DNA of 64,000 bases, from positions 1-64,000 of the forward strand of contig NZ_JQGK01000016.1 of NCBI RefSeq assembly GCF_000743525.1, written 5' to 3'. Below the pieces are notes generated by a model. It was not told where the DNA came from. It saw nothing but the letters and a program-made list of their open reading frames with translations, and searched no databases. The DNA comes from Sulfurospirillum sp. SCADC (GTDB lineage: Bacteria; Campylobacterota; Campylobacteria; Campylobacterales; Sulfurospirillaceae). Of the stretch, positions 12,124 through 29,063 are shown one piece after another (the first letter of the stretch is position 1; the number at the start of each line of letters is the position of its first letter). The position numbers and the translations under genes were made by a program.

Positions 12124-13408
12124 CGTATTGATTGTTGACGATAATGATAACAACAGGCTCACACTCAATCTTTTGCTTGAAGAGGTAGATGGCATCGAAA
12201 TCTTTGAGGCAGAAGATGGGCAGGTTGCCGTCGAAATGTGTGTTAAAAACCATTTTGACCTAATTTTTATGGACATTATGATGCCCAATCTGGATGGTTT
12301 TGAGGCGACACAATTCATTAAACAAGTCAATAAAAAAAGTATGATCATCGCCCTTAGTGCCCTCGATGATGATACCTCCAAAAACAGAATGCTCTCTTTG
12401 GGAGCGGAGGATTACCTCACCAAACCGCTGAATGCGGAGCATTTTTTACAACGAATCAGACAGTATTTACGCATTATTGCCCTGCGCAATAAACAGATTC
12501 ATAAATTCTCAAGTGCGCTGAATCCTTTTAATGCGCATGTTTTTCACCGAAACATTACTTTTCGCATTGATGACGAAGAGGCATTGGCGCAGTTTTGGGA
12601 CTATTGGCTCAATGGTGAGAAAAGTATCATCAACCTGAGTGACTGTGTCCGCCTTATTTACGGCTTTGGTTTATGGCTGTTAAAACATGAATATGCGTGC
12701 AGTATTGTCGTGGAAGAGAGCGAAGAAAAACTCTACATGATGCTTTTACATGTAAAGCCACTGAGTGGCAATATCATCAAAAATATTTTGCTCAAACATT
12801 TTGCCAATGCCAAGTATATTCTCTCCAATGACATGCTCACGTTTCAGCTGGATAAAGAGATCACGCGTGAAAGTTCTGCTGGTAGTGTCGCGATGAGTGA
12901 TGAGACCAAGAAAATCCTCTCCAAAACGCACGATAACGTGCAGAGTGCAGTGGATTATATTAACGCTACGGCGATCTCCTTCCTTTCCAAAATTGATGGC
13001 TTAGAGATCATTAATGACGATACGGACAAAGCCATTTTGGCATTTGAAAAAGAGCCCAATAAGCGCAATTTATCGGTTATTTATGAGAATTTCCAAGAGT
13101 ATGCCGATATTTTAGCGGAATTGATGGAGTTTGAACACTTAGGTTTTGCGGTGCGAACATTGATTGATTTTCTAGGAACGCTTACCGAAGAGCAATTTGA
13201 TACCGACAAATCCAAACGTCTTTCAGCGATGCTGCTCAATCTTCTGCATGACCTTGCTTCGTGGAGAGAAAATGTGTTTATCACCCAAGTGGCACGCGAT
13301 ATTCACTATCTTGATTCATCCCTTTTAAGTTCGTGTATTCAAATCGAAGCTATCTTTGATGAGAAGAGCCTCGACCCGAGTCATGATGATGATATAGAGT
13401 TCTTTTGA
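12116..13408 (+). CDS. Response regulator with unknown two-part C-terminus, 430 aa
   Basis: The N-terminal receiver (about 1-120) has VDDNDNN, phospho-Asp in IFMDIMMPNLDG and Lys in LTKPL. The remaining 300 residues match no output domain I know. A middle alpha/beta region (about 140-245) is followed by a helical region (about 275-410) that could be a four-helix Hpt-like bundle, though I see no HxxKG motif. The last residues are acidic and end DDDIEFF, similar to the tails of the operon's receptor and degenerate kinase. Last gene of the operon, ending at the 13479 terminator. An exact palindrome copy at 12745 reads LLHVK. Confidence 0.75.
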   Translation: MYNVLIVDDNDNNRLTLNLLLEEVDGIEIFEAEDGQVAVEMCVKNHFDLIFMDIMMPNLDGFEATQFIKQVNKKSMIIALSALDDDTSKNRMLSLGAEDYLTKPLNAEHFLQRIRQYLRIIALRNKQIHKFSSALNPFNAHVFHRNITFRIDDEEALAQFWDYWLNGEKSIINLSDCVRLIYGFGLWLLKHEYACSIVVEESEEKLYMMLLHVKPLSGNIIKNILLKHFANAKYILSNDMLTFQLDKEITRESSAGSVAMSDETKKILSKTHDNVQSAVDYINATAISFLSKIDGLEIINDDTDKAILAFEKEPNKRNLSVIYENFQEYADILAELMEFEHLGFAVRTLIDFLGTLTEEQFDTDKSKRLSAMLLNLLHDLASWRENVFITQVARDIHYLDSSLLSSCIQIEAIFDEKSLDPSHDDDIEFF

Positions 13409-13478
13409 TGTTAACATTGGGTTTTCCTCGGTGGAAAGTCCGCGCACCCTTAGTGCTTTGAGCGTTTGTAAAATCAGG

Positions 13479-13513
13479 TTTGTTTATGCCCCAAAGTACA
13501 GGGCATAAACAAA
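13479..13513. terminator. Bidirectional terminator hairpin
   Basis: A perfect 13-bp stem (TTTGTTTATGCCC at 13479-13491 with its complement at 13501-13513) closes a 9-nt loop. It lies between the ends of two convergent operons, the chemosensory genes on plus and the diguanylate cyclase on minus. Confidence 0.85.
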
Positions 13514-13516
13514 GTC

Positions 13517-14536
13517 TCATTTATTTGATTGGTGATGGATTTTGTAGGTATTTCGACCTTCTGCTTTGGCAACATAAAGGGCAAGGTCGGCATTTTTGAT
13601 GAGCTGATTAAAATCAACACCATGATTGGGGAAGAGGCTAATACCAATACTGGTCGTTACATGTAAATCAAAGTTTCGAATGCGAATGGGTTGTGTGATG
13701 GCTTGAATCAGCTTGGTGGCAATGTGATTGAGATTTTTTTCTTCTTCAATATCATCGACTAAAATAATAAACTCATCCCCTCCAAAACGTGCAACGGTAT
13801 CGCTTTTCCTTGTTGCCAGCAGCAGTGATTTTGCCACATGAATCAAAATCATATCGCCCACATCGTGTCCAAGGGTGTCGTTAATCTCTTTGAAATTATC
13901 CAGATCTAAAAAGAGCACACCAAATTTCTTACCGCTGCTTTGATTGTTTTCGATCAAAAGTTGCATGCGTTGTGTGAGCAGTGTTCGGTTGGCTAAGGAG
14001 GTGAGATGATCATAATGTGCTTGTTTGTAGATGATCTCTTTTTGTTTCATCAGTTTGTTTTTAGCCGTTTCGAGTTTTCGAATCGTCGCATTCGCAATCC
14101 TGTTTGCGTTGGCAAGCTCTTCGCTCTCTTTATTGCATTTGGCTTTCTCTTCCATCAAACTGGTTTGATCGTAAATAAGCACGGTCACCTGTTTTTCCTC
14201 AACGCAGTAAGGAATAATCGTAATGTCTTGCTGCATAAACTCAAAAATGGACTTGGTTGTGGTCGAATTTTTCATCGGAAAAAGGTAGTGATTTGCATCT
14301 GCCGTAAAAAAAGAGGGGCCTTTGAGCGTGAGTGCTGCTTTGATGTGGCGCTTCAAAGATTTGAGGCGTTCAGGGGAGAACTCAAACAGATCCAGAATAT
14401 TTTTTCCGATGACCTGTTCCGCATCGATGTCGTTGTGCACGGTAAACCATTTGTTGGCGTAGTAGATCTTAAGATCAGCATCCATTGTTACGATGCCCAC
14501 ATTGATAGAATCAATAATTTTTTCGCAGTTGATCAT
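13517..14536 (-). CDS. PAS-GGDEF diguanylate cyclase, 339 aa
   Basis: An N-terminal PAS domain (about 1-120) is joined by a coiled coil (about 130-170) to a GGDEF domain (about 175-335). The active motif ARFGGDEFIIL is intact, and the inhibitory I-site RKSD sits five residues before GGDEF, so product inhibition is likely. It makes c-di-GMP from GTP. No membrane helices. It is last of three minus-strand genes, after a receiver and a CheC/CheX-like protein, so the cluster probably links chemosensory phosphorylation to c-di-GMP. The stop abuts the shared terminator. Confidence 0.93.
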   Translation of the reverse strand: MINCEKIIDSINVGIVTMDADLKIYYANKWFTVHNDIDAEQVIGKNILDLFEFSPERLKSLKRHIKAALTLKGPSFFTADANHYLFPMKNSTTTKSIFEFMQQDITIIPYCVEEKQVTVLIYDQTSLMEEKAKCNKESEELANANRIANATIRKLETAKNKLMKQKEIIYKQAHYDHLTSLANRTLLTQRMQLLIENNQSSGKKFGVLFLDLDNFKEINDTLGHDVGDMILIHVAKSLLLATRKSDTVARFGGDEFIILVDDIEEEKNLNHIATKLIQAITQPIRIRNFDLHVTTSIGISLFPNHGVDFNQLIKNADLALYVAKAEGRNTYKIHHQSNK

Positions 14537-14538
14537 GG

Positions 14539-15138
14539 TTATATCTTATCAATGGTATGTTTGAGATGATCGAGCATTTCGTTGTTCAGAAGAATAAACA
14601 TATGCCCCAAGATATTCTCTTTTTCGATGTCAAGGGCGGTTTTGATGACAATGACATTGTCATAACCTTCGATTTTGTCGTATTTGTCCATCTCAGAAAT
14701 TTCGCGTTTTTCGATGGAAGGGACTTTAAAAATGGTCTCGCCATGAATAATTTCACAAAATTTTCCAATACACGCGGAAGTGATAATGTTGGTCAGTTCT
14801 AAAATAGACGATTTAATATCCCCTTCATCGCTCATCTCTTGTTTGAGCAAAAGGTCACAAAACGCACGAGCAGAGTAGCTATTAAAGACAAACAGGACTT
14901 CGCCGTTAAATGAGCCTAAAAAGCGTTGCTTTGTCAGGTAAAATTCGTATCCTTCTTCCAGAACTTCGATGATTTTATCGTCTAAATTATGGATGGCAAT
15001 GTTGGAAATATCAGGAATGTGTAGTTTGGCATGGTTGTCGAGCATATCGCCAATTAAAGAGGCGGAGAGTCCAAAAGAGACGTTAATCAACTCTTTTAAA
15101 ATATCTTCTTGTTGCGGGTTAAAATAGGGCGTTGTCAT
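14539..15138 (-). CDS. CheC/CheX-family phosphatase-like protein, 199 aa
   Basis: Two related halves carry the family's helix motifs: DILKELINVSFGLSASLIGD near the N-terminus and SILELTNIITSACIGKF in the middle. CheC proteins have Glu-x2-Asn in these helices to hydrolyse CheY-phosphate; here EL-IN and EL-TN match. The length fits CheC more than CheX. It lies directly after a receiver gene, with the stop TAA touching its ATG, and before the diguanylate cyclase. It is the likely signal terminator for a receiver of this locus and a possible partner of the CheD at 9104-9571. Confidence 0.8.
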   Translation of the reverse strand: MTTPYFNPQQEDILKELINVSFGLSASLIGDMLDNHAKLHIPDISNIAIHNLDDKIIEVLEEGYEFYLTKQRFLGSFNGEVLFVFNSYSARAFCDLLLKQEMSDEGDIKSSILELTNIITSACIGKFCEIIHGETIFKVPSIEKREISEMDKYDKIEGYDNVIVIKTALDIEKENILGHMFILLNNEMLDHLKHTIDKI

Positions 15139-15519
15139 TTAAAATACCAACTTTAAGAGGGTTGTACGAAATTCTTGTTCATCAACAGGTTTTGAGATCA
15201 GCGCCGAAGCACCAAGGCTTAAAACTTTTTCTTTCGTGCTTTTTTGACGATCCGCTGAGATCATCACCACCAGTGCATCTTTGTTGATGGCGCGGATAGC
15301 TTCCAGCGCTTCAAACCCATCGATAATAGGCATCGTAATATCTAAAAAAACAACATCAGGGCGGTGTTGGTCGTAAAGGACAATCGCCTCTTCGCCATTG
15401 CATCCTTCGATGATTTCCGCACTTTCAAGGATTTTTTTTGGAATCATTTCGATCAGCCATCGCCGTGATATTTTTGAATCATCCACGACTAAAAAAATCA
15501 TTTTATTTGATAAGCCCAT
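15139..15519 (-). CDS. CheY-like response regulator, 126 aa
   Basis: A single receiver: VVDDSKISR at the N-terminus, phospho-Asp in VFLDITMPIIDG, Ser in MISAD and Lys in ISKPV. The frame stays open upstream to 15648, but the start is placed at ATG 15519 because GAGGATTATGAG precedes it and homology begins there. First of a three-gene minus-strand unit with the CheC-like protein and the diguanylate cyclase. Its probable kinase is CheA or the PAS kinase of the facing operon. Confidence 0.9.
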   Translation of the reverse strand: MGLSNKMIFLVVDDSKISRRWLIEMIPKKILESAEIIEGCNGEEAIVLYDQHRPDVVFLDITMPIIDGFEALEAIRAINKDALVVMISADRQKSTKEKVLSLGASALISKPVDEQEFRTTLLKLVF

Positions 15520-15580
15520 CTCATAATCCTCATAGTGTAATTCTATAGCCCAATATGGTACAAAAAATATCTTTAAAAAA

Positions 15581-16564
15581 CTATATGAGATATTTTTTGC
15601 TCTCTTCTTTACTCGCATAAGGTGTCGCATGAAGAGTGCGTTCGCCAAGACTCAGTGCATAGGTTTGCTCTGGAATGGCTTTGGTAAAACTGAGCACCAT
15701 GCGGCACGCAAGCGCTTCATCCAAAGCCGAAGCATTTTTAGAAAGAAGCGAGCTTGGTGCACTCATCTCTTCGTTTACATGTAAAAGATTAAACTTGGGA
15801 TTGTGCAAAGAATCTATAAAATCGTTTTCGTGCTCATTGCGCCCAATGACCAGTTTTGCACCATCCGGAAGTCTAAAATGCCTTCCATTTTTGAGCACGT
15901 CAATGTCCTCTTTGACAAAGGTGTCGTGCGCGATGAAATCACGCATACGGGCACTAAATTGCACATCGGTCAGCAGACATCCGCCTGCAGGGGTGGGAAA
16001 ATCTTCCCAGCCGAGCTCTTTGGCAAGGGCAAGTTGTGCATGGCGCCCTCTGCCATTGAGTCCTAAAAGTCTGCTTCGATCAACCCAGCCTTCACGCTCA
16101 GGTTTGGTCTCTTCCATCACTTGTGCACACAGAGGGCGCAGGATGATGTCCTCATCGATGTCATTGGCGATCTTTTTGACAAGACGCAAGGCGTCTTTAT
16201 TTTGACTCATAGGACGTTGTCCGACCACTTCACCGGTTGCGATAAACGAAGCGCCATAGCGCGGAAGCAGGGATTTTGCGACCGTGAACATAAATCCATG
16301 ACAGTCGATGCACGGATTGAACTGTTTGCCATAGCCGTGTTTGGGGCTAAAGAGAATTTTTTGGATATATTGATCGCGAACATCGATCACTTCGAGGGTT
16401 GCGCCTGCAATCGTGGAGCGGCGTTTAAGCGTTTCATAATGGTCTTCTTTGATACCAAATCCAATGTTAATGTGCAGAGCAATGACCTCAATGCCCTGAT
16501 CACTTAAGAGTTTCATTGCGAGCATGCTATCCAGCCCACCACTATAGAGTACTAATGCTTTCAT
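15581..16564 (-). CDS. PP-loop ATPase, ThiI/MnmA-like tRNA-thiolation family, about 327 aa
   Basis: The N-terminus has the PP-loop YSGGLDSMLA, used to adenylate a substrate. CIDCHGFMF and GGCLLTDVQFSARM give conserved cysteines, as expected for sulfur-transfer enzymes acting on tRNA. The C-terminal 100 residues resemble the extra domain of ThiI-like proteins sometimes annotated as argininosuccinate-synthase-domain proteins. The exact substrate cannot be told. The first ATG (16579) lies 15 bases upstream; 16564 is chosen because MKALVLYSGG is the usual start and an AAGGTG lies at a usable distance. It overlaps the end of dnaG by about 23 bases. Confidence 0.7.
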   Translation of the reverse strand: MKALVLYSGGLDSMLAMKLLSDQGIEVIALHINIGFGIKEDHYETLKRRSTIAGATLEVIDVRDQYIQKILFSPKHGYGKQFNPCIDCHGFMFTVAKSLLPRYGASFIATGEVVGQRPMSQNKDALRLVKKIANDIDEDIILRPLCAQVMEETKPEREGWVDRSRLLGLNGRGRHAQLALAKELGWEDFPTPAGGCLLTDVQFSARMRDFIAHDTFVKEDIDVLKNGRHFRLPDGAKLVIGRNEHENDFIDSLHNPKFNLLHVNEEMSAPSSLLSKNASALDEALACRMVLSFTKAIPEQTYALSLGERTLHATPYASKEESKKYLI

Positions 16565-18200
16565 ACGGAACCAATTCACCTTGTTTTAATTTCATCATTT
16601 TTTCTTGTATCTTGCGGATCAAAAACTGCTTTTTATCGTAACTGAGTTCACGCGCGGTTTTGATCTCTTGGAATTTTTCATTGTAGTAATGGTACAAAAA
16701 AGCGACCATCGAGGCAATGAGTGATTTTTCATCGTAAATTTTAATATCTTCCCAAAGCAAAATGCGTCTGAGTTTGGGGTGCTCAAACTGATTTTCCAAC
16801 AGAAGCGTAAACTCTTCGTGATGGGTTTTGAACATCGAACTATCGATGGTGTCGAGCACCGTGTCGATCAGATTGGGCTGGCTGAGGATCGTTTTGATGA
16901 TGGTCAGCTCCAACATGTCTTCAAACACTCGCTCTTTTTTATCGAGACGTTGGGGTTTATGGCTTTGGATTTTGACCAAATTGTGATGCAGTCCTAGTTT
17001 TTCGGAGAGCATGCCTGTGTAACTCTCTTGAATCGCTTGAGGCAGTGTTTTAAGGTAACTCATCGCCTCGGTTAGGGCTTGTTGTTTGGCTAACGGGTCT
17101 TTGAGATTGTACTTTTTGACCATGCGCTCTAGTGCAAATTCGATGAAGGGCTGAGGGGTTCGAAAGAGATGATTGAGCGCGTCCATCAACCCATTTTGCA
17201 CCATATCGGCAGGGTCCATACCATTGCCAAAGAGGACAACGCCTCCTTTAATACCATGCGCACTTAAGAGAAATGAAGCTTTGAGTGCGGCATTAATGCC
17301 TGCATCATCCCCATCGTATGCCACAATTACTTCCGGATCACCCCTTGTGATGAGGGGAACATGCTCGTTCGTAAGGGCGGTTCCAAGCGTTGCCACGGCA
17401 TGCGTAAAGCCTGCTTGATGCAGCATAATGACATCAAGATACCCTTCGGTAATGATGATGGATTTTTTCTTATAAATGCTCTCTTTAGCAAGTTGATAGC
17501 CATAAAGCAGTTGGGATTTGTTAAAGTGTTTGGTTTGAGGCGAATTGACATATTTGGCTGGGTGATTGGAGAGGGTACGTCCGCCAAACCCAACCAATCG
17601 GTTGCTGGGGGAATAGATGGGAAACGTGACACGCTCGATAAAACGCGCATAGGGTTGATTGTTTTCCCCCACACCTGCGACACCGTACTCCATACTTTCA
17701 CTCATCGCGTAGCCTCGACTGCTTAGAAAATCCAGTGTGGCAAAGGAAGCAGGTGCATAGCCGATCTCAAACTTCTCCATGGAGGCTTCGGAAATGCCTC
17801 GTTTTACCAAATACTCTTTGGCAAAAGGTGTTTTGTCTAACTGTTTGACGTAGAAAAGATTGAGCGTTTCCATCAACTTTCGATCCTCTTTTTTCACCCC
17901 GTCACTGGTGGTGTAAGAGAGTGAAAAGTTGACCATATTGGCGAGTTTTTCGATGGTTTCAGGGTAGGAGAGCTTTTCATATTCCATCACAAACTTGATG
18001 CTATCGCCTCCTGCGCCACAGGCAAAACAGTGGTAAATTTGCTTCGAGGGGCTCACCACAAGGCTTGGACTGGTATCGTTGTGAAATGGGCAGACGCACT
18101 TGTAGTTTGCACCATTTTTCTTCAGCTCCAAGTACGAGCCTACGATGTCGACAATATCAAGGCGTTGTTTGAGATTCTCTATGGATGTTTTGTCTATCAT
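16542..18200 (-). CDS. dnaG: DNA primase DnaG, 552 aa
   Basis: The N-terminal zinc-binding domain (about 35-65) has CPFHNDTSPS and HCFACGAGGD. The TOPRIM catalytic core has the Glu of ITEGYLDVIML and the acidic pair in VAYDGDDAG. The C-terminal part is the helicase-interacting region, and overall length is normal for the phylum. It makes RNA primers at the replication fork. Transcribed divergently from the TPR gene at 18266; the PP-loop gene follows with overlap. Confidence 0.97.
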   Translation of the reverse strand: MIDKTSIENLKQRLDIVDIVGSYLELKKNGANYKCVCPFHNDTSPSLVVSPSKQIYHCFACGAGGDSIKFVMEYEKLSYPETIEKLANMVNFSLSYTTSDGVKKEDRKLMETLNLFYVKQLDKTPFAKEYLVKRGISEASMEKFEIGYAPASFATLDFLSSRGYAMSESMEYGVAGVGENNQPYARFIERVTFPIYSPSNRLVGFGGRTLSNHPAKYVNSPQTKHFNKSQLLYGYQLAKESIYKKKSIIITEGYLDVIMLHQAGFTHAVATLGTALTNEHVPLITRGDPEVIVAYDGDDAGINAALKASFLLSAHGIKGGVVLFGNGMDPADMVQNGLMDALNHLFRTPQPFIEFALERMVKKYNLKDPLAKQQALTEAMSYLKTLPQAIQESYTGMLSEKLGLHHNLVKIQSHKPQRLDKKERVFEDMLELTIIKTILSQPNLIDTVLDTIDSSMFKTHHEEFTLLLENQFEHPKLRRILLWEDIKIYDEKSLIASMVAFLYHYYNEKFQEIKTARELSYDKKQFLIRKIQEKMMKLKQGELVPYESISTL

Positions 18201-18222
18201 GACTAAATTATAGCAAGTTTGG

Positions 18223-18228
18223 TATAAT
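18223..18228 (+). promoter_or_regulatory. -10 element TATAAT for the TPR/rnhA/rnc/aroC unit
   Basis: TATAAT lies 38 bases before the TTG start at 18266, in the short gap between dnaG and the TPR gene. No good -35 is seen, which is common for sigma-70 promoters of this phylum. Confidence 0.6.
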
Positions 18229-18265
18229 AGACATCTTTACAAACTTACATGCGAAGGTTTACGTT

Positions 18266-19312
18266 TTGGATAATTTTTTTATAGCGTACCGTGATCCTCT
18301 TTTTGGCGTCATTATCTTGTTTGCGATTGTCTTTGTGATCTCGTTTTCCAACTATTGGTGGGGTGTTTTTAAGAGCAAAGAAGAGAAGCAAAGTATCGAT
18401 AAATTTGTTAAAAAATTTGAAATTGTCACCGATGAAAATGAGTATAAAAAGCTCCTCGAAGACGCTTCCATTCCTCTCGAATCCTTAGCCCTGCTTGCGC
18501 ATGCGTATGGCAAAGGGGGCGATTATGAAAAAGCGATCAACATCTATCTGGTCACGCTCAAACGCGTTAAAGGCAAAGATGAGAAGCAGTACCTTCTCTC
18601 TACGTTGGGCAAAACCTATTTTAAAGCAGGCTTCCTTCGCCGAAGTTCCGAAGTCTTTTTAGAGTCACTGCACCTGCATCCACGCAACGAGGAGTCTCTG
18701 AAGTATTTAACGGTTGCTTACGAGCAACTTCAAGAGTACACCAAAGCCGAAGAGGTGCTAGACTCCTTGGAAGAGTTGGGTGCCAAAGTTGGGGTGCAGC
18801 GAGCCTATTTGAAAGCACTGAGTACGATTAAAGACAGTCGTCTTAAAGAGGGTGAAAAAGTTGAAAAACTGCTCGAACTCTCCGCTACAGCACCTTTTTT
18901 AAAGCGAAAACTGTTTGAATTCATGTTGGAAAACGGCATCAAAATTGAGCAGAACTTTTTTGAAACCTTGCCGTTTCGGGGCATGATGGATCTGTTGTGG
19001 TATGTGGATTTTAGGGTCTACGACATTCTTACATGTAAAGATCCTCTCGTGCAGCAAATCGCGATGGCACGGGGGCTTACACCCTATGTTGAGCCCAAGA
19101 GCGAAGCGCTGTTTGCACTGGATGTTTTAGGTAAACTTCACAGTGTGGGGTATACGAACGCAAGCATCAGTTTTGAGTACCTCTGCTTTGAATGCAAACA
19201 CGTTTTCCCGATTCATTTTTACAGGTGTCCGCACTGCCAAAGCATCGATACCGTAACGATTCAAACCAACCTGATTAAAGCGGATCATGAAGAAAATATC
19301 TCTTTTCTGTGA
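18266..19312 (+). CDS. Membrane-anchored TPR protein with C-terminal zinc ribbon (LapB-like), 348 aa
   Basis: One N-terminal transmembrane helix (about 12-32) anchors it with the bulk in the cytoplasm. TPR repeats fill about 70-220. The C-terminus has two Cys pairs, CFECKHVF and CPHCQSID, forming a rubredoxin-like zinc ribbon. This order of anchor, TPR and ribbon is that of LapB/YciM, which controls LpxC turnover and LPS assembly in enterobacteria; that function here is only inference. It starts at TTG, shortly after GAAGG. The 3' end overlaps rnhA by 26 bases. Confidence 0.75.
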   Translation: MDNFFIAYRDPLFGVIILFAIVFVISFSNYWWGVFKSKEEKQSIDKFVKKFEIVTDENEYKKLLEDASIPLESLALLAHAYGKGGDYEKAINIYLVTLKRVKGKDEKQYLLSTLGKTYFKAGFLRRSSEVFLESLHLHPRNEESLKYLTVAYEQLQEYTKAEEVLDSLEELGAKVGVQRAYLKALSTIKDSRLKEGEKVEKLLELSATAPFLKRKLFEFMLENGIKIEQNFFETLPFRGMMDLLWYVDFRVYDILTCKDPLVQQIAMARGLTPYVEPKSEALFALDVLGKLHSVGYTNASISFEYLCFECKHVFPIHFYRCPHCQSIDTVTIQTNLIKADHEENISFL

Positions 19313-19718
19313 TGGTTCCTCCTTAGGCAATCCTGGGGCGGGTGGGTATTGCGCGATTTTACGGTTTGGCACGAGCGAGCGCATCGTCAGTGGCGGAATG
19401 GCAAACGCTACGAACAATCAGATGGAACTTTTGGCGGTCATCGAAGGCTTGGCGGCGCTTAAAGAGCCGTGCGATGTGACACTCATTAGCGATTCGAGTT
19501 ATGTCATTAAAGGGATTAACGAGTGGCTTGAGGGGTGGAGGCGCAAAAACTTTGCGAAGGTGAAAAACCCTGAATTGTGGCAACGTTATCTTGATGTCTC
19601 TAAAACGCATAAAGTGCGTGGCATTTGGGTTAGAGGACACGACGGGCACACTGAAAATGAGATGTGCGATAAAATCGCCAAAGAAGAAGCAACCAAAATT
19701 AAATTGATGGAGTCATAA
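19287..19718 (+). CDS. rnhA: Ribonuclease HI, 143 aa
   Basis: It degrades the RNA strand of RNA-DNA hybrids. Catalytic acids are seen in [12 protein letters not shown] (Asp), [11 protein letters not shown] (Glu), LISDSSYV (Asp) and NEMCDKIA (Asp). RGHDGH carries the mobile active-site His. Length is normal. It overlaps the TPR gene upstream and precedes rnc by 2 bases. Confidence 0.96.
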
Positions 19719-19720
19719 TT

Positions 19721-20404
19721 ATGCAAAAAAGATTAGAAGCGATACAGAAGCGCTTGGGTTATCAGTTTAGGGATCAAAACCTGATAATCGAGGCACTGAC
19801 ACACAAAAGTTCCAAACAACCCTACAACAACGAGCGCCTTGAATTTTTAGGTGACGCCGTGCTCGATCTCATCGTGGGTGAGTATTTGTACCACGAATTC
19901 ACTGAAGTGGCGGAGGGCGAACTCTCCAAACTGCGCGCTTCCTTGGTGAATGAAAAAAGTTTTGAGAAGCTTGCACGACTGCTGCATTTGGGCGAATACA
20001 TCTACATCTCTTTAGCCGAAGAGAACAACAATGGACGTGAAAAACCCTCTTTGCTCTCCAACGCATTTGAAGCGATCATCGGCGCTCTTTACCTTGAAGC
20101 AGGGCTTGAAAAAGCGAGGGATTTGGCGGTGGCCCTTTTGGAAGAGGCATACCCCAAAATCGATATGGACGCCATTTTTAGAGACCATAAAACCACGCTT
20201 CAAGAGCTTACGCAAGCCCATTTTGGCATGACGCCAGAGTACCGTTTGGTGCGCTCTTTTGGACCGGATCATAAAAAAGAGTTTGAGATCGCCGTGAGTG
20301 TGAGAGGTCGTGATCTCTCCATCGCGAGTGGCAAAAGTAAAAAAGAGGCGCAACAAAAAGCGGCGATGTTGGCGTTGGAGATTTTGAAAAAGGAAACGCG
20401 ATGA
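19721..20404 (+). CDS. rnc: Ribonuclease III, 227 aa
   Basis: The RNase III domain has the signature [14 protein letters not shown] (about 38-51), with catalytic Glu/Asp and a second acidic cluster in [17 protein letters not shown]-terminal double-stranded RNA-binding domain starts near 155 and ends [16 protein letters not shown]. It processes rRNA precursors and other duplex RNA. Clustered with rnhA, and overlapping aroC by 4 bases. Confidence 0.97.
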
Positions 20405-21474
20405 ACACCTTTGGCAAGCGTTTTTGTTTTACAACCTTTGGTGAGTCGCATGGAAAGGCGATTGGATGTGTGATCGATGGCGTTCCTGCAGGGTTAGCCA
20501 TCGATGAGGCGTTTATTCAAAGTGAGTTAGATCGTCGCAAACCGGGGCAAAATAAGTTTGCTACCGCCCGTAAAGAGGGCGATCAAATCGAGATCTTAAG
20601 CGGTGTTTTTGAAGGGCTTAGTACGGGCACACCCATCGCGATGGTCATTTTCAACGAAAACCAAAAAAGCGGTGATTACGAGAGTGTCAAAGACCTTTTT
20701 CGCCCAGGGCATGCTGATTTTACCTATTTTCACAAATACGGCATTCGAGATTACCGTGGTGGTGGACGTAGTAGTGCCAGAGAAACGGCAGCGCGTGTAG
20801 CCGCAGGTGCGATTGCCAAATTGCTTTTAAAGGCTTTACATGTAAAGGTTCAAAGCGGCATTTGTGCCATTGGTGGCATTGAAGCCAAAAATTATGATTT
20901 TGCACGTGTCAGTCAAAGTGAGATTTATGCGCTTGATGCCAGTGTCGAAGAGGCGCAAAAGGCGGCGATTTTAGAGGCTAAAAATGCGCATGATTCTGTG
21001 GGTGGCGTCGCATTGGTGCAGGTCATTGGCGCTCCTGTTGGATTGGGTGAGCCGATTTATTATAAACTTGATGCTCTTTTGGCGGAAGCGATGATGGGTA
21101 TTAACGGCGTTAAAGGCGTGGAGATCGGTGAAGGGTTTAGCGCTTCAACACTCAGAGGCTCAGCCAACAACGATGCGATCACACAAGAGGGTTTTGCCAC
21201 CAACCACAGCGGCGGCATTTTGGGCGGTATGAGCAATGGCGATGCCATTACATGTAAAGTCTATTTTAAACCCACACCGTCTATTTTTATCGCCCAAGAG
21301 ACGATTGATACCAAAGGCAATGCGCTTACATGTAACCTCAAAGGAAGGCACGATCCGTGCATCGCAGTACGTGGGAGTGTCGTGGCAGAATCCATGGCGG
21401 CTTTGGTCATCGCTGATCTGCTTTTATTAAATCTTGGATCGAATATCGAACAGATCAAACGCGTTTACATGTAA
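20401..21474 (+). CDS. aroC: Chorismate synthase, 357 aa
   Basis: It makes chorismate from EPSP using reduced FMN, the last common step of aromatic synthesis. All three family signatures are visible: [14 protein letters not shown], the region [19 protein letters not shown], and [10 protein letters not shown]. Full length. Three palindrome sites lie inside the gene, plus one at the very end that supplies its last codons and stop. Confidence 0.97.
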
Positions 21475-21475
21475 A
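21464..21475. repeat. Palindrome TTTACATGTAAA forming the aroC stop
   Basis: Read in the one frame that contains a stop (TAC ATG TAA), the motif encodes the final Tyr-Met and the TAA of aroC. Within coding DNA this frame can occur only at a gene end. Confidence 0.85.
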
Positions 21476-21481
21476 GAAGGA

Positions 21482-21502
21482 GTGGCTACGCAATGTAGCC
21501 AC
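21482..21502. terminator. Hairpin between convergent aroC and feoB
   Basis: A perfect 8-bp stem (GTGGCTAC/GTAGCCAC) with the 5-nt loop GCAAT lies between the aroC stop and the feoB stop. No strong T-run follows on either side, so the terminator call is moderate. Confidence 0.5.
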
Positions 21503-21508
21503 ATGCTC

Positions 21509-23731
21509 TTATGTGAAGAGTAATAACGTACGATAAGTAATAAACGCCAATACCCACGCAGTGATAAAGGTAAAGAGCACTAAATAAACCGTGTATTTGA
21601 GACTCTCTGCCTCTTTATAAAAGACGGCAGTTGCAGCAAGGCATGGTAGATAGATCATAACAAAGACGATAAATGCCATTGCGGATGCAAAGTTCATATT
21701 TGAAGCGATAATCTCGCGAAGGGAATTGTCTTCTTCTGTCACTTCATCGCCCAAGGAGTAGAGCACGCCCAGCGTTGAGACGATGACCTCTTTGGCGGCC
21801 AATCCACTAATCGTAGCAACCCCCATCTTCCAGTCAAAACCAAGCGGTGCAAAAAATGGTTCAACCACTTTTCCCATCAATCCAAGGTAGGTATTTTCCA
21901 TCAATTTTTCATGTTTTTCATTTTCAAGAGCGGCAATCGTATCTTCGAGGGAACCTGAATCTTGAGCACTCAGCTCAGCGGTTGTCTCTTCCGTAGGTTT
22001 CGTTTCCTCGGTTGCCTCTTTGTTTGGCGCTACCGTTTCAGCGGAAGCGGCATCATCCAGTTGTGCTTGAAGCGCTTCGATCTTGGTTGTATACTCCTCT
22101 TCGATCAGACTATTTTGAGGGTAAGAGCTGATAAACCAGATGAGCATGGACGCCAAAAGAATGAACGTTCCCGCTTTTTTGATGTACATCGCAGACTTCG
22201 AGTAGACCACGAACCAGAGCAGTTTGAGGCTTGGAAGACGGTATTTTGGCATCTCCATAACAAACGGCTCATCTTCACCTTTAAACGCAGTGACACGTAA
22301 AATTTTAGCCGCGATAAGCCCTAAGAGTGCACCTGTAATGTAAATGCCAAAAAGCACATTGCCTGCCATCTCTTCTTCAAAGAAAGCCCCTGAAAAAAGG
22401 ACAAACACAGGAAGACGTGCGCCACAACTCATAAAACCGATGATAAACATCGTCAGCAGTCGGTCTTTTTTGTTTTTAAGCGTACGTGCTGCCATATACG
22501 CAGGTACAGAACATCCAAAACCGGTGACGAGCGGAACAAAGCTTTTACCGTGAAGTCCAAATTTATGGAAGAAGCCATCGAGTAAGAACGCGGCTCTTGA
22601 CATATAGCCGGTGGTTTCCAAAAGCGCTATGCCTAAGAAAAGGATCATAATGTTTGGTAAAAACATAATAACACTGCCTACACCTGCGATGATACCATCC
22701 ACAATCAGTGATTTGAGTGCTTCATTGCTGATCGTCTCTCCCACGGTATCACCCAACCAGCCAAAGCTATCTTCGATCCATCCCATAGGGATTTCACCGA
22801 GGCTAAAGGTGAGTTGAAACAGTCCCCACATGAGGAAGATAAAGATAGGAATTCCAAAGAGTTTGTGAATTAAAACGGCATCAATAGCTTGGGTAAAATT
22901 TTTACTTTTAGCGTTGGTCACACGGAGCACTTCGGCACATAACCCTGTGGAAAATGCGCTGTGTTGGCGGTTGATGACCTCTTCGATCTCTTCGCATTGG
23001 CAGTACATGTAAACATGGCCTAGCGCGTTGTTGAGAATTGGCTGAAGCTCAACGTAGAGCGGATGTTCGTGCATGTACGCATACATCTCTTTTTTCTGCC
23101 ACAAAAGCCCAACGGCAATTTGGCGGTTTGTCAGTGCATTGGTTGCGTGAAAATGTTTGTCATCTAAAAATTTCACGATGGTTTGTAACTGCTCTTCGAC
23201 TTCATCGCTGTAGATCATTTTAGGCGCAACGAGGGGATTTTTGTTTACATGTAAAATCTTCTCTACCAAAAGATCAATGTTGGTTTTGGTTTTGGAAGAG
23301 ACGCGAATACATGGGATAGAGAGGATTTTGCTCATCGCATCGGCGTTGATGTCAATCCCTTCTTTGATCGCTTCATCGTCCATATTAAGAGCAATGATCA
23401 TCTTCTTTTGAAGTTCCATGAGTTCCGTGGTGAGCATTAAATTGCGCTCTAAATTGGTAGAATCGAGGACATTTAAGATCAGGTCGTATTCGGCTGTGAG
23501 CAAAAAGTCTTTGGTCACTTTCTCATCGGCGGAGAAATCTTCAAGTGAATAAAGACCAGGAAGGTCGATAAATTCGATTGAAAAATCCTCGGTACTGAGA
23601 TGCGCGGTTGCTTTTTCAACGGTCACGCCTGCAAAGTTTCCGATTTTAAGATTGGAGCCACTGATGGCATTGGCAAGGTGACTTTTGCCGACATTGGGTT
23701 GTCCGACAAGGGCAATAACAATTTTTTTCAT
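21509..23731 (-). CDS. feoB: Ferrous iron transporter FeoB, 740 aa
   Basis: The N-terminal G domain has G1 GQPNVGKS (8-15), G3 DLPGLYSL and G4 NMDD. A cytoplasmic helical domain follows, then membrane Gate domains with multiple helices (from about 290, including GCSVPAYMAARTL). An insert of about 60 residues rich in Glu, Thr and Ala lies between membrane segments (about 575-640), longer than in many FeoB proteins. It imports Fe2+ across the inner membrane. It directly follows feoA, with stop and start sharing one base. With the p19 system next door broken, this is the intact iron importer of the region. Confidence 0.97.
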   Translation of the reverse strand: MKKIVIALVGQPNVGKSHLANAISGSNLKIGNFAGVTVEKATAHLSTEDFSIEFIDLPGLYSLEDFSADEKVTKDFLLTAEYDLILNVLDSTNLERNLMLTTELMELQKKMIIALNMDDEAIKEGIDINADAMSKILSIPCIRVSSKTKTNIDLLVEKILHVNKNPLVAPKMIYSDEVEEQLQTIVKFLDDKHFHATNALTNRQIAVGLLWQKKEMYAYMHEHPLYVELQPILNNALGHVYMYCQCEEIEEVINRQHSAFSTGLCAEVLRVTNAKSKNFTQAIDAVLIHKLFGIPIFIFLMWGLFQLTFSLGEIPMGWIEDSFGWLGDTVGETISNEALKSLIVDGIIAGVGSVIMFLPNIMILFLGIALLETTGYMSRAAFLLDGFFHKFGLHGKSFVPLVTGFGCSVPAYMAARTLKNKKDRLLTMFIIGFMSCGARLPVFVLFSGAFFEEEMAGNVLFGIYITGALLGLIAAKILRVTAFKGEDEPFVMEMPKYRLPSLKLLWFVVYSKSAMYIKKAGTFILLASMLIWFISSYPQNSLIEEEYTTKIEALQAQLDDAASAETVAPNKEATEETKPTEETTAELSAQDSGSLEDTIAALENEKHEKLMENTYLGLMGKVVEPFFAPLGFDWKMGVATISGLAAKEVIVSTLGVLYSLGDEVTEEDNSLREIIASNMNFASAMAFIVFVMIYLPCLAATAVFYKEAESLKYTVYLVLFTFITAWVLAFITYRTLLLFT

Positions 23732-23961
23732 TAGGCGACCTCGACTTCGATGAGTTTTGCTTCATCGAAACGAAGCGCTACTGCGCTAAAGCCAAGAGTA
23801 ATTTTAATCGTATTTTTTTGAAGGCTTGTCTCGACGACTTCGACCTCTTTACCTACACCAAGACCTAGGGAAAAGAGGCGTTTTTTCAACGAATGTTGTG
23901 CGTATATATGGGTGATATGCGCTTTTTGATTTTTAGTGATTTGAGATAAATCCATAAGCAT
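23731..23961 (-). CDS. feoA: FeoA, SH3-like partner of FeoB, 76 aa
   Basis: A single FeoA domain of usual length with the hydrophobic beta pattern and GLGVGKEVEVVE in the middle. It binds the cytoplasmic part of FeoB and is needed for iron uptake in studied species. GGAATGC-type spacing with AAAGGAA precedes the ATG at 23961. It forms a two-gene unit with feoB. Confidence 0.93.
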   Translation of the reverse strand: MLMDLSQITKNQKAHITHIYAQHSLKKRLFSLGLGVGKEVEVVETSLQKNTIKITLGFSAVALRFDEAKLIEVEVA

Positions 23962-23991
23962 TCCTTTCTAAATCCAATTTCATAAGAGCGC

Positions 23992-24018
23992 ATTATATAG
24001 ACAGTAACCTTATGTCTA
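23992..24018 (-). promoter_or_regulatory. feoAB promoter with candidate operator
   Basis: On the minus strand TATAAT (23992-23997) lies about 30 bases before feoA. Directly upstream is an inverted repeat TAGACA...TGTCTA (23998-24003 and 24013-24018, 9-nt spacer), placed where a repressor would block RNA polymerase. AT-rich DNA at 24020-24050 could hold a Fur site, but I cannot assign one firmly. Confidence 0.45.
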
Positions 24019-24071
24019 AATAAAAACGATTATTAAAATATAAATAAAATGGAACTGCTTTCTCGATGCAG

Positions 24072-24432
24072 TTATAACGTGAGGTGTCGTTTAGCCGTAA
24101 TGTCAATATCATCTTTTAAAAGCGGATAGTGAAATTTGGACTGCGCTTCAAACGCGGCGATTTTACTCGTATCGTCGATGGAATTGATGGCAATAATGGC
24201 AAGCGTATCGGGATATTGCTCTTGCATGCGATCCAAAAGTGGCACCGCTTCGGTACACGAAACGCAGCACCACGATTTTACCTGCGTACTGCGCTAAATG
24301 AATGTCATCACCATTCAAGGTTTTGGCGGAGAGTTCAGGTGCTTGGGCATTCATCTTCGCTTTTTGAGGCACGGCGTTGCAGCCATGCAAAAGTAGTGCG
24401 AAAAAAAGCAAGGCAATCAAAACATTACGCAT
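24072..24432 (-). pseudogene. TlpA/ResA-like thioredoxin lipoprotein, frameshifted
   Basis: The start MRNVLIALLFFALLLHGCN gives a signal peptide with lipobox LHGC, followed by a normal TlpA start (APELSAKTLNGDDIHLAQYAGKIVVLRF). The frame then runs into unrelated residues and stops early. The matching C-terminal half continues in another frame: WCCVSC, then TEAVPLLDRMQEQYPD, and onward to TAA at 24072-24074. A deletion of about 20 bp between two short TGCGTTTC-type repeats would explain both halves and would remove the start of the CxxC active site. In Campylobacter such genes end the p19 cluster. Overlaps the chimera upstream. Confidence 0.75.
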
Positions 24433-24742
24433 GAGGTGCCTCTTCCATTTTGCCATGACGAAGGTGGATGATGCGATCCGCATAACGCCCAAGTTCAGGA
24501 TTATGGGTGATCAGAATGATTGTTTTGCCTTCGATCTCGATACCAAGTGCTCCACCTTTGGGCAAAACAATGATGTTGGAGCCGTAACTGCGAAGCTCAA
24601 GTGCGACCTTATCGCCAATACCAAGCGTAATGTTGAGCATTGAAGCAACCAGTATGGAGACTAAAAAGATGGTCAAAAAGGCGAGCATCTTTTGGGTTTT
24701 ATTGCCCCAGAGGGCACTTTTAAGGAGTGTGTATTCCATCAT
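24425..24742 (-). pseudogene. Chimeric remnant: ABC permease N-terminus joined to ABC ATPase C-terminus
   Basis: About 105 codons remain. The first 65 residues (MMEYTLLKSALWGNKTQK, then a membrane helix and RSYGSNIIVLPKGGAL) are the beginning of a MacB/FtsX-type permease. After GIEIEGKT the reading becomes IILITHNPELGRYADRIIHL, the H-loop and C-terminus of an ABC ATPase. The rest of the first permease, the second permease and most of the ATPase, expected here by comparison with the Campylobacter p19 cluster, are missing. A single in-frame internal deletion is the simplest cause. The start overlaps the TGA of the DUF2318 gene. Confidence 0.8.
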
Positions 24743-26151
24743 TTGTTCACGTCTCCTAACGCTTGGTAGCCTTGTGCTCTCCAATGCGATTCACTGGCGG
24801 TATCCACGTAGCGCTCAGGGTTTTCTTTAAATTTTTCATACGTGTCACTGTTTTCAAAGTAGTACGTTTTTCCACCAAAGACGTAGGTTTTTAGTGCTTT
24901 GAGGTTAATCAGTTTCGCGCCACTCACAGGATCGGTGACCGTTTTTTCGACAACCTCAGAGAAGTAGTTCACCCCTTTGAGAATCGTCTCAAGTTTGAAT
25001 GTGATCTCTTTGCCATCAAAATGATAGGGGAAAGGAATGGGGTTGCAGCCACCCTCTTTACCGACGGATGGGATAAAAATACGTACATTGCACGCGATAC
25101 AAATGAGTTCATCGCCTTTTTTAACATAGCCCATATCGCCGCAAATCATACACGCGTCAAACACCGCAACGGGCGCGTCTTTGTCTTTGTAACGGTTGAG
25201 TAAAAAGAAGCGAATTTTATTGCCCTCGTCGGTAATGTAGGCAAAACGGTGCAGGTCGTTGTCGCGCAACAGCTCCATCGGGATTTTAAATTCACCGTTT
25301 ACGGGCTCTAAAATCGTCGGTGTCGAAATGGTTGGCGGACGTGAAGCGACCAAATCGTAATAGAGTAAAAATGTACTCATGGTAAGCACGATAAGCATGT
25401 TACATGTAAAGATTTTTTGCAGATGGGATCTTCTTGCACGAATGCGCCTAGAGGCGATGACGCCCACTGCTTCTTTACGCTCTTTAGGCGGTTGTTGGCG
25501 CAGAAAAAGAGCGCTTAAGCCAATGACGAGGGCAAGGTAAAGGTAGGTAAAAAATGACGAGTAGTGCAACACTTTAGCCACTGCGGAGAGAAGCCATGTG
25601 GAAGTTGGGAGCAGACCCAAACGCATTAAGGCTATACCCAGTTCGCCCAAAACAGTGACCAGCAAAAAAAGTGTGGTCAATGCAATGGCAACATTTCGAA
25701 CGCTAGGGCTGAGCGTTTCCGTGACCTTTGCCATAAGCCAGTAAAGCAGCAAAAGCAACCCTGCGCTCAAGACCACAATGCCCAAAGAGACGATGGAAAG
25801 CGTGTCTAAAAGCGCACCCTTCAGCAGTGGAAAATCGCGACTCAGTGTGCCATACTCGATGCCAAAAGAGATCGCAAGCAGTGCCATGAGCGCCAGTTTG
25901 AGGCTCTTAAAAGGAAGCAGACACACTGCCCAGCCCAGAAGCAATAAAACGGCGATAACACCGTTGGCATAAAGCTTGAGTGTGGTATCCCAAAGGTAGA
26001 GATTGGCAAATTCAAAGAGGCCAATTCCTATCCAAATACCGATAAAAGAGGCTAAAAAAGTGGCTTTGAGGCTCGGGTGTTTGCTCCATAAAGCGCTCAA
26101 AAGCGTCAAGCCCAGTAATGCTTGCATCACGTGGATAAAATAAATTGACAT
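24739..26151 (-). CDS. DUF2318 membrane protein of the P19/FTR1 iron system, 470 aa
   Basis: Roughly eight membrane helices fill residues 1-215, with another near 250-268. The C-terminal domain outside the helices has two Cys pairs, CMICGDMGY and CIACNVRIF, typical of DUF2318, and ends with a YHS-like segment (TYVFGGKTYYFENSDTYEKF). The equivalent in Campylobacter (Cj1660) lies between p19 and ABC genes and is thought to serve electron or metal transfer for periplasmic iron handling. The frame is intact although both neighbours are broken. A palindrome core (25400-25409) encodes part of the linker helix. Confidence 0.85.
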   Translation of the reverse strand: MSIYFIHVMQALLGLTLLSALWSKHPSLKATFLASFIGIWIGIGLFEFANLYLWDTTLKLYANGVIAVLLLLGWAVCLLPFKSLKLALMALLAISFGIEYGTLSRDFPLLKGALLDTLSIVSLGIVVLSAGLLLLLYWLMAKVTETLSPSVRNVAIALTTLFLLVTVLGELGIALMRLGLLPTSTWLLSAVAKVLHYSSFFTYLYLALVIGLSALFLRQQPPKERKEAVGVIASRRIRARRSHLQKIFTCNMLIVLTMSTFLLYYDLVASRPPTISTPTILEPVNGEFKIPMELLRDNDLHRFAYITDEGNKIRFFLLNRYKDKDAPVAVFDACMICGDMGYVKKGDELICIACNVRIFIPSVGKEGGCNPIPFPYHFDGKEITFKLETILKGVNYFSEVVEKTVTDPVSGAKLINLKALKTYVFGGKTYYFENSDTYEKFKENPERYVDTASESHWRAQGYQALGDVNK

Positions 26152-26175
26152 TGCGTCGTGTCCTTCAACAAAAAC

Positions 26176-26216
26176 TTGCGTCTTTTTTTGTTTACATGTA
26201 AGAAAAAGAGACGCAA
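26176..26216. repeat. 41-base near-palindrome with TTACATGTAA at its centre
   Basis: Outer arms TTGCGTCT (26176-26183) and AGACGCAA (26209-26216) pair perfectly, T- and A-runs pair partly, and the core TTACATGTAA forms the apex. It lies 25 bases upstream of the DUF2318 gene and after p19, where it could act as a terminator or RNA-stability hairpin. Confidence 0.6.
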
Positions 26217-26229
26217 ATTTTGGGTCAAA

Positions 26230-26253
26230 AAGAAGAGCACCAAGGCTCTTCTT
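26230..26253 (-). terminator. Hairpin just after p19
   Basis: A perfect 9-bp stem AAGAAGAGC/GCTCTTCTT with a 6-nt loop lies a few bases beyond the p19 stop. On the minus strand it is followed by TTTT, so it may terminate part of the p19 transcript before the DUF2318 gene. Confidence 0.55.
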
Positions 26254-26259
26254 AGGGGT

Positions 26260-26794
26260 TTAGTCTTGAATACCTGTGTATTTAAATTTATAGCTTGTGG
26301 TGAACGGTTCAAACCATTTACCAACACCGGTTGCAGCATCGGCATGTCTTCCAAAACCTTGTTTGGAAGGGTTGTCGATGGTAAATTTCACTTCGTAGTT
26401 ACCGACACCGAGCATTTTGATATTCGCTCCGTAGTGAGGACCATCGGATGCAACCATTGGCATGAAATTACCTTTTTTGCTTTTGCCTGTATCGAGGTTT
26501 TTGATCTCATAACTGACGGTTAAGTAAGGAACCCATTCACCAGCTGCAAAACCGTTGGTATTTCCCTCTGTTGCGCTGATGTCTGCTTCAAGATGCACAT
26601 CGGCTTGTGAAGGTGCGAGGGTCGATGCCTTTTGGTTCCATATCGATTGGTTTAAGGTACACAGCCGCAATCGCCATGTGATTCATCACCACCTCTTCGC
26701 CAATAGGTTACTCTTTAAACTCAGCCTCTGCAGCATGGGCTAACATAACGGCTACGCTCAGTGCTAAGACTGATTTTGCCAACATTTTTAACAT
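26260..26794 (-). pseudogene. p19: p19 periplasmic iron-binding protein, nonsense plus frameshift
   Basis: A GGAGG site and ATG at 26794 begin a signal peptide (MLKMLAKSVLALSVAVMLA) and EAEFKE, then an in-frame TAA. The same frame continues PIGEEVVMNH and AAVYLKPIDMEPKGID, all P19-like. At GACCCTCGCACC one extra C shifts the frame; the rest (LAPSQADVHLEAD to the end KFKYTG) reads on normally in the next frame. Two independent lesions make it a true pseudogene. Intact P19 is a dimeric periplasmic protein binding copper and iron and works with the FTR1 permease. The region 3' of the shift keeps conserved stretches such as MPMVASDGPHYGANI. Confidence 0.88.
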
Positions 26795-26843
26795 AGTTCC
26801 TCCTTAAAAAATTTAGATCTCAAAATCGTTCTCCTTTTTTTGA

Positions 26844-26868
26844 GATTCAAGCTTTTTTCGCTTGAATC
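26844..26868. other. Hairpin spanning the FTR1 stop codon
   Basis: GATTCAAGC (26844-26852) and GCTTGAATC (26860-26868) form a perfect 9-bp stem with a 7-nt A/T loop. It covers the last codons and stop of the permease gene and sits before p19. It could attenuate transcription or protect the upstream message. Confidence 0.5.
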
Positions 26869-28739
26869 ATGATGTATAACGAGCCAAAAACGAGCCCCAA
26901 AACAAGCACGGCTTGGGGAATCAGGCTTTGCATGTACGGATAAAGTCCAAGCCATGTCATCGTTGGAAACCCTTCAATGAGGGTAGGTTGAAACACTTTA
27001 CCTTCCACGAGTTCCATAATGCCTTTGCCGGTAAAAACAATTGCCATGTAAAAGATGATCGCGCTGGTGATCATGAAAAAAGGCTTAATCGGAATCCTGA
27101 TCGCTCCTGCTTTGAGAAGGAAAAAGAGAATGACAAGCGCAATGACACCGATGCCAAATCCTGCGGCTAACATGCTGTACCCTAGCGGTGTTTTCGCATC
27201 AAAAATAAGTGCTTGGTAAAAAAGCACGGTCTCTGCACCTTCGCGGTAAACCGCTAAAAAGACCGTAAACCAAAGGGCTCTGATCGAACCAGAGCTGAGG
27301 GATTCTGAGACTTTCTCCGCAATGTAGTGGCTCCATTTTTTCGCGTGCGCATTGGAGAGAAGCCAAAAGCCCACGTAGTACAGCAGTCCTACGGCGACGA
27401 GCATCGTGACACCTTCTAGCATTTCGCGCGATTCTCCTGGATTTTGAAAGATCAAATTCATCACAAAAGCGGTCACAAAACTAAGAATAATCGCGCTCCA
27501 TAAAGCGCTGTAAACGATGTTAAGACGTGTTGTGTTGCCACTTTTGATCAAATAGGCGATGACAGCGGTGACGACGATGAGTGCTTCAATGCCTTCACGT
27601 AAAATGATGATCAACGCGTAGAGAAATTGACTCCATGGTGAATCCGAACCCGAGAGTTTTTCAGCCCCCGAAGCCACTTGCGTATTTAATGAATCCATCT
27701 CGCTTAACACACTCTCAGGGCTGCTTTGGTTTTTCATCAACGCTACGATCTTGCTAAAAGAGCCTTCGATGCTTGTTTTAAGCGTGCTATCGCCCGCGCC
27801 AATTTTGACTTCCATCCCGCTGGCTTCAAAGATGTCAAAATAGAAATTTTGAACCAATTGCATCGCTTTTTTCGCTTCACCTGTGCGGTAGAGTGTGTGC
27901 GCTTCAGCCAATTTTGCTTTGAGGTTTGCCATCACAGGCGCAAAATCTTCTTTAACTTCTTCAATCGCCTCTTCTTTAACGCTCACAACTGCGAGTTTAG
28001 CCGCGTCTGTTGGTAGTTCAAGAAGGCTGTGCCAGATGTTGCTTTTGAGACGTTCCAGCTCCTCTTTGGTGTGAATCTCTTCATCCACCGCGCGAATGAC
28101 ACGCCCCATCTCTTGCTGAATCTGGCTATCGCGCCATTTGGAGATGTATTTACGTACCGCCGTTTCGATCATGCCGTTGCGATACTCTTCAAATTTGACC
28201 GAAGTGATGATAAATTTTGTCTCTTCTTTATCGCCTTTTTCAAAAGCAACTAAAGCTTTGGCGTATTTGGTTTCGATATGGTTGTAGAGCGTTTTCCACT
28301 TAATGTCTAATGTAGGCTCGGGTGTTTGCGTTGCAACTTCAACATGGCTGTCATCGCTTTTTTCACCCACAAGGCGTGTTCCTTTTTCCAGTTTAGGCAG
28401 CACTTCTGCCATTTCAGCGGAAAGATTGTCCATCACAGCTTTGACTTCAGTGATAGAAGCGCCATCGTTAATCAGCTTACGAATCGAGACAAATTGTGCT
28501 TCCATGGCATAGGATTTTTTACCCGAAACATTGATGCGAATCGGTCCTTCAAGGTTTTCAAAAAGCTCAAAATAGGCACTTTGCGCCACTTGCTTTGCCT
28601 CTTCTTGCTCGCCTTTTTCATAGAGCGCTAAACTCTCTTGAAAGGTTTGGTTGATTCGGTTCATAATATCTGCATAATTGGTTGTAGCAGCCGAAAAAAG
28701 CAAGGAGGGGAGAAATCCCATCAAAAACAGGCAGAGCAT
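26847..28739 (-). CDS. FTR1-family iron permease with periplasmic domain, 630 aa
   Basis: A signal peptide (about 1-17) is followed by a periplasmic region of about 350 residues with three related helical repeats (for example NYADIMNRINQTFQESLALY and MANLKAKLAEAHTLYRTGEA). The C-terminal 260 residues hold about seven helices with the two REGxE iron motifs of FTR1: LREGIEALIV and YREGAETVLF. This matches Cj1658, which moves iron across the inner membrane with P19. The frame is intact, but its partner p19 is broken. The AT-rich upstream DNA contains TATAAT (minus strand, near 28810) and could hold a Fur site. Confidence 0.88.
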   Translation of the reverse strand: MLCLFLMGFLPSLLFSAATTNYADIMNRINQTFQESLALYEKGEQEEAKQVAQSAYFELFENLEGPIRINVSGKKSYAMEAQFVSIRKLINDGASITEVKAVMDNLSAEMAEVLPKLEKGTRLVGEKSDDSHVEVATQTPEPTLDIKWKTLYNHIETKYAKALVAFEKGDKEETKFIITSVKFEEYRNGMIETAVRKYISKWRDSQIQQEMGRVIRAVDEEIHTKEELERLKSNIWHSLLELPTDAAKLAVVSVKEEAIEEVKEDFAPVMANLKAKLAEAHTLYRTGEAKKAMQLVQNFYFDIFEASGMEVKIGAGDSTLKTSIEGSFSKIVALMKNQSSPESVLSEMDSLNTQVASGAEKLSGSDSPWSQFLYALIIILREGIEALIVVTAVIAYLIKSGNTTRLNIVYSALWSAIILSFVTAFVMNLIFQNPGESREMLEGVTMLVAVGLLYYVGFWLLSNAHAKKWSHYIAEKVSESLSSGSIRALWFTVFLAVYREGAETVLFYQALIFDAKTPLGYSMLAAGFGIGVIALVILFFLLKAGAIRIPIKPFFMITSAIIFYMAIVFTGKGIMELVEGKVFQPTLIEGFPTMTWLGLYPYMQSLIPQAVLVLGLVFGSLYIMIQAKKA

Positions 28740-28850
28740 CTTAAACTTTGGAATGACCTTTGATGTATGACGTTACATGTAAATAAAACTAGTTTACAAA
28801 TTAATAATTATAATAGAATAATAATACTACAATTCTTTGAGAAGTATAAA

Positions 28851-28879
28851 ATGTGTGTTAAATGATTTTTAACACACAT
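28851..28879 (-). terminator. Strong hairpin between rnhB and the FTR1 gene
   Basis: A perfect 12-bp stem (ATGTGTGTTAAA with its complement) closes a 5-nt loop. It separates the rnhB transcript from the iron-uptake transcript, both on the minus strand. It is followed on that strand by a T-rich stretch. Confidence 0.65.
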
Positions 28880-28915
28880 AGAAAAAAGAGATGAAAACGA
28901 AGTTTTTTGAAGAGT

Positions 28916-29052
28916 CCAGTGGTTAGTGCAGGCAAAGAGCTTTGTTGTTTTTGATCTGTCGAGAATGTATGAAGCAAGCCTTATTCTGCCAACAAAGTTG
29001 GCAAGCTTCAGTGCCCCAGTGGCTAACGTAGGGAAAAGAGCTTTGCTTTTTT
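28916..29052. repeat. Imperfect direct repeat, two copies 100 bp apart
   Basis: Copy one (28916-28951) and copy two (29016-29052) share CCAGTGG, then a variable stretch, then AAAGAGCTTTG and a T-run. The internal AGAGCTTTG...TTT pattern recurs in both. Origin unknown. Confidence 0.45.
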
Positions 29053-29063
29053 CCCGTGTCAAA

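Follow-up and report, generated by a model that had tools for sequence, protein, structure and literature searches.

The closest described system is the p19 operon of Campylobacter jejuni (CJJ81176_1649-1656, Cj1658-1665), which encodes FTR1, P19, an inner-membrane protein, two permeases, an ATPase and two thioredoxins (PMC6083913). The first six genes of the operon are kept in order in all 33 species examined, and the substrate of its ABC permeases and ATPase is unknown (PMC6083913). The window, i.e., the whole stretch of 64,000 nucleotides from Sulfurospirillum sp. SCADC which was analyzed here, contains an operon of this type. Its FTR1, P19 and FtrD-type components (Pfam FTR1, Iron_transport, and FtrD-like) are also common to the FtrABCD iron uptake system, from which it differs in that its p19 gene is broken. 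FtrABCD is not known to have an ABC permease pair.

Four genomes of the same genus (G001, G005, G006, and G007; loci L030 to L033) served as intact references. In these relatives the genes for FTR1, P19, FtrD, permease 1 (425 aa), permease 2 (387 aa), the ATPase (220 aa), thioredoxin 1 and thioredoxin 2 follow each other, and feoA and feoB are located downstream. The gene order equals that of the C. jejuni p19 operon (PMC6083913). Compared to the latter, permease 2 and thioredoxin 2 are gone from the window, as are the greater parts of permease 1 and of the ATPase, and the p19 and thioredoxin 1 genes are broken. By descent the locus is a p19 operon: the syntenic remnants adjoin the same neighbors, feoA and feoB, and can be aligned at base level with the four congeners. 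It is not a working p19 operon with six genes in order, since p19 is broken, the ABC genes are deleted and full-length genes remain for FTR1 and FtrD only. The ferrous importer genes feoAB, which adjoin the decaying operon, have open frames.

Within the genus, the p19/FtrD cluster was found in only 5 of 24 genomes, and patchy presence is therefore common here. Where an FtrD protein was found in the Campylobacteraceae and relatives (22 loci), permease 1, permease 2 and the ATPase were full-length in every case.

The permease-ATPase chimera and its joint

The features of the chimeric ORF are the following:

24425..24742, (-) strand: permease 1-ATPase chimeric ORF, interpreted as a deletion scar
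24533..24742, (-) strand: retained N-terminal part of permease 1 with N-terminus, TM1 and the start of the periplasmic domain (alignment to relatives, hydropathy)
24522..24532, (-) strand: joint with the one remaining copy of the 11-bp direct repeat GAAGGCAAAAC (alignment to four congeners)
24425..24521, (-) strand: retained C-terminal part of the ABC ATPase with the H-loop ITHN and the tail (alignment to relatives)

The ORF has a length of 104 codons from ATG 24739, or of 105 from the upstream ATG, plus the stop codon. The tandem ATG is located at 24737-24742, and the translation reads M-MEYTLLKSALWGNKTQKML...GIEIEGKTIILITHNPELGRYADRIIHLRHGKMEEAPHA-stop. About 74 N-terminal residues of a MacB/FtsX-type permease are followed in frame by about 35 C-terminal residues of an ABC ATPase, including the H-loop. 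This arrangement had been proposed in the original prediction, and both halves do match the cluster of the four congeners: the matches are of 88-91% to permease 1 over residues 1-76 and of 89% to the C-terminus of the ATPase over residues 68-104. The two counterparts lie about 2.8 kb apart in these relatives, whose full genes also bear out the proposed collapse of two permeases and most of an ATPase. The start and stop overlaps with both neighbors survive as predicted, although the downstream neighbor, thioredoxin 1, is itself broken. The FtrD stop codon overlaps the ATG-ATG of the chimera, the stop codon of the chimera in GCGTAA overlaps the ATG of thioredoxin 1, and the same layout is found in the relatives.

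With about 74 of 425 residues remaining, and without the full periplasmic domain and the C-terminal FtsX membrane domain, the chimera does not belong to the MacB/FtsX-type ABC permeases. It is not an ABC ATPase either, since only the H-loop and the tail are left; Walker A (GPSGSGKT), the signature (LSGGEQ) and Walker B (ILLADEP) are all located in the deleted part of the gene. A Pfam search with the chimera alone reached no family.

Alignment with the intact clusters mapped the ends of the deletion, as had been proposed, and revealed the 11-bp repeat at the joint. The same 2779 bp, which hold permease 2, the motif-bearing part of the ATPase and the larger portion of permease 1, are missing from the window in each of the four comparisons, and the bases on both sides of the joint align one-to-one with the intact relatives. 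The repeat GAAGGCAAAAC, which codes for EGKT in both parent genes, is exact at both ancestral ends in L030 and L031; in L032 and in L033, one of the ends differs from it by a single base. A direct repeat at both ancestral ends and a single copy at the joint are the marks of a repeat-mediated deletion. Few other repeats of 11-13 bp are present in the intact cluster, and a homology of 11 bp or more at the ends occurs in about 5e-6 of random deletions in the region. Because of these odds and of the base-for-base alignment of both halves, chance is excluded as the source of the chimera; the same odds make slippage or short-homology recombination by far the likeliest mechanism. A search across the genome for another copy of the ABC genes found none, the lost DNA having only matches of 67 bp or less.

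We infer, with a probability of about 0.9, that one repeat-mediated deletion left the chimera behind as a scar, within an operon which is being lost as a whole. The two copies of GAAGGCAAAAC would have been located in the permease 1 gene, toward its 5′ end, and in the ATPase gene, toward its 3′ end. By slipped-strand mispairing or short-homology recombination, one of them would then have been removed together with the intervening 2768 bp. The ATPase frame seems to have been kept by chance, the probability of joining the frames in register being 1/3. The frame, which is open without an internal stop, and the kept translational overlaps count against a scar. These statements refer to one genome of the species. 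The locus resembles bacterial pseudogenes born by deletion through slipped mispairing at short direct repeats, in which one repeat copy and the intervening DNA are lost and a chimeric ORF is left. There is no difference in principle, except that the joint here happens to be in frame, and as a pseudogene the chimera is ordinary and of low novelty.

If a product is made, it would consist of one TM helix and an ATPase tail lacking the ATP-binding motifs. The helix is predicted at about residues 17-38, with the Kyte-Doolittle hydropathy peaking at 2.4 over residues 19-37, and is followed by what is left of the permease periplasmic domain, about 30 residues. In MacB/FtsX permeases the N-terminus lies inside and is followed by TM1 and a large periplasmic domain, so that the ATPase tail of the chimera would face the periplasm. 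Judged from the sequence, translation and membrane insertion are possible, but a function is unlikely because the motor motifs are gone, the tail would be periplasmic after TM1 and the surrounding operon is broken. A role as transporter subunit in the known way would be impossible. The chimera is most likely an ordinary pseudogene and not a new small protein.

Further lesions in the operon

Beyond the original prediction, a second deletion and small lesions were found in the remainder of the operon. The features are, in the order of their coordinates:

24083..24098, (-) strand: second deletion joint, 628 bp lost (alignment to relatives)
24088..24434, (-) strand: thioredoxin 1 pseudogene (alignment to relatives; weak AhpC-TSA match only, Pfam)
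24739..26151, (-) strand: FtrD-like membrane Fe-S protein with YHS domain, 470 aa, ORF intact (Pfam; window-branch N/S 0.08)
26260..26794, (-) strand: p19 periplasmic iron-binding protein, pseudogene (Pfam and alignment to relatives)
26847..28739, (-) strand: FTR1-type iron permease, ORF open (Pfam; window-branch N/S 0.05)
28790..28844, (-) strand: upstream element at the expected place, Fur-box-like candidate (conserved in four relatives)

The thioredoxin 1 gene is frameshifted by a 20-bp deletion near 24259-24273, with which most of the WMMGC-type active-site stretch is gone. It also lacks its 3′ end, which was taken by the 628-bp deletion together with nearly all of thioredoxin 2. At the joint of the latter deletion a microhomology of about 5 bp (AAACG) is present. 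In one of the four congeners (G007, L033:7552-8092) thioredoxin 1 is frameshifted by its own 2-bp deletion, whereas the p19 cluster is otherwise intact; this is damage to the same gene, independent of that in the window.

In the p19 gene, codon 29 is a nonsense codon, TAA (context 26702-26716). About 30 codons further on, one inserted base causes a +1 frameshift (context 26612-26629). The usual ATG of ftr1 is lost in the window, and an in-frame ATG remains four codons downstream. Of the 40 positions of the upstream element which are invariant in the four relatives, 7 are changed; this number exceeds the all-site rate but does not exceed the synonymous one (p 0.13), and it suggests lost constraint, no more. 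The core of the operon appears to be lost by now as well, because of the p19 lesions, the loss of the ftr1 start and the degraded upstream element. A search of the literature for described p19 decay in Sulfurospirillum found nothing specific. The intergenic region between rnhB and ftr1 (28749-29063 in the window) is unlike that of L030, L031, and L033 and resembles that of L032.

Selection, order of loss and alternative readings

On the window branch, ftr1, p19 and ftrD together show 90 synonymous and 17 nonsynonymous substitutions, compared to 142 and 25 in the relatives (p 0.86). The ratio is the same, so that selection acted on the core along nearly the whole branch, and the lesions found in it arose recently. 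Given such strong purifying selection, either the operon was lost only recently or its core persisted longer than the ABC/thioredoxin part. The remnants, i.e., both halves of the chimera and thioredoxin 1, show 22 synonymous and 15 nonsynonymous substitutions on the same branch, which differs from the core (Fisher p 0.005); the comparison with the same stretches in the relatives gave only p 0.07. The N/S of the remnants, about 0.2, lies under the neutral value. This is expected with the deletion falling late on the branch, but it would also fit weak constraint and to that extent speaks against a scar. Constraint on the ABC/thioredoxin part may have ended somewhat earlier than on the core. An order in which it would have been lost first, and p19 later, is suggestive but not proven. 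Dating the deletion by the N/S of the 104-aa remnant alone was dropped, as the signal was too weak (p 0.06-0.08).

It is possible, if rather doubtful, that the operon was first cut to an FTR1-P19-FtrD module which still took up iron, only the ABC/thioredoxin part being dispensable, and that the chimera is the scar of this step. Purifying selection on the core equal to that in the relatives fits such a reduction, as does the occurrence of FtrABCD systems without an ABC permease pair; the two disabling lesions of p19, the missing start of ftr1 and the degraded upstream element speak against it. The reduction is compatible with the loss of the operon as a whole, as an earlier stage of it, and the two differ on whether the core is working today. 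The locus has a modest value as a natural experiment, since the permeases and the ATPase of the p19 system are lost in a lineage in which traces of selection persist on ftr1, p19 and ftrD. It gives a hint that, of the two halves of the operon, the ABC/thioredoxin one may be losable before the FTR1/P19/FtrD one. A combined course, in which a translated single-pass membrane microprotein arose by the deletion and persisted for some time next to a reduced FTR1-P19-FtrD iron importer, the ABC genes and thioredoxins having been dispensable in this lineage before p19 was lost, is very improbable.

A new functional protein, namely a small single-pass membrane protein with a soluble tail which modulates, e.g., FTR1/FtrD or another ABC transporter, is very improbable. 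The open frame with its preserved start and stop overlaps and the credible TM helix would agree with it, but the ATP motifs are lost, the tail would lie in the periplasm, the adjoining genes are broken, the remnants are less constrained than the core and an in-frame joint is expected in one third of cases anyway. Moreover, the fusion occurs in one genome only: a match spanning the joint was sought in 44 genomes of the family and found in none of the 43 others, and the short form is absent from the 22 further loci. A short form conserved in relatives, which would have spoken against a collapsed transporter, was thus not found. An assembly or sequencing artefact, with intact ABC genes collapsed or lost in the draft, is the weakest reading of all. 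The assembly is indeed a draft of 38 contigs, and the single-base lesions of p19 could be sequencing errors, but the 11-bp repeat is too short for an assembly collapse, errors do not typically comprise two separate deletions and a further one of 20 bp, and the lost DNA is found nowhere in the 99.99% complete genome.

Among the other loci with a p19 cluster, two identical stretches of 15,347 bp (L007 and L019) were found on one contig of Campylobacter gastrosuis (NZ_JANURM010000001.1, 12768-28114 and 224094-239440), which are either a recent duplication or an assembly artefact. In a Sulfurospirillum MAG, a second relative of the ABC ATPase (36%) is located downstream of the p19 cluster (L024:12740-13390), between thioredoxin 1 and a partial match to thioredoxin 2.
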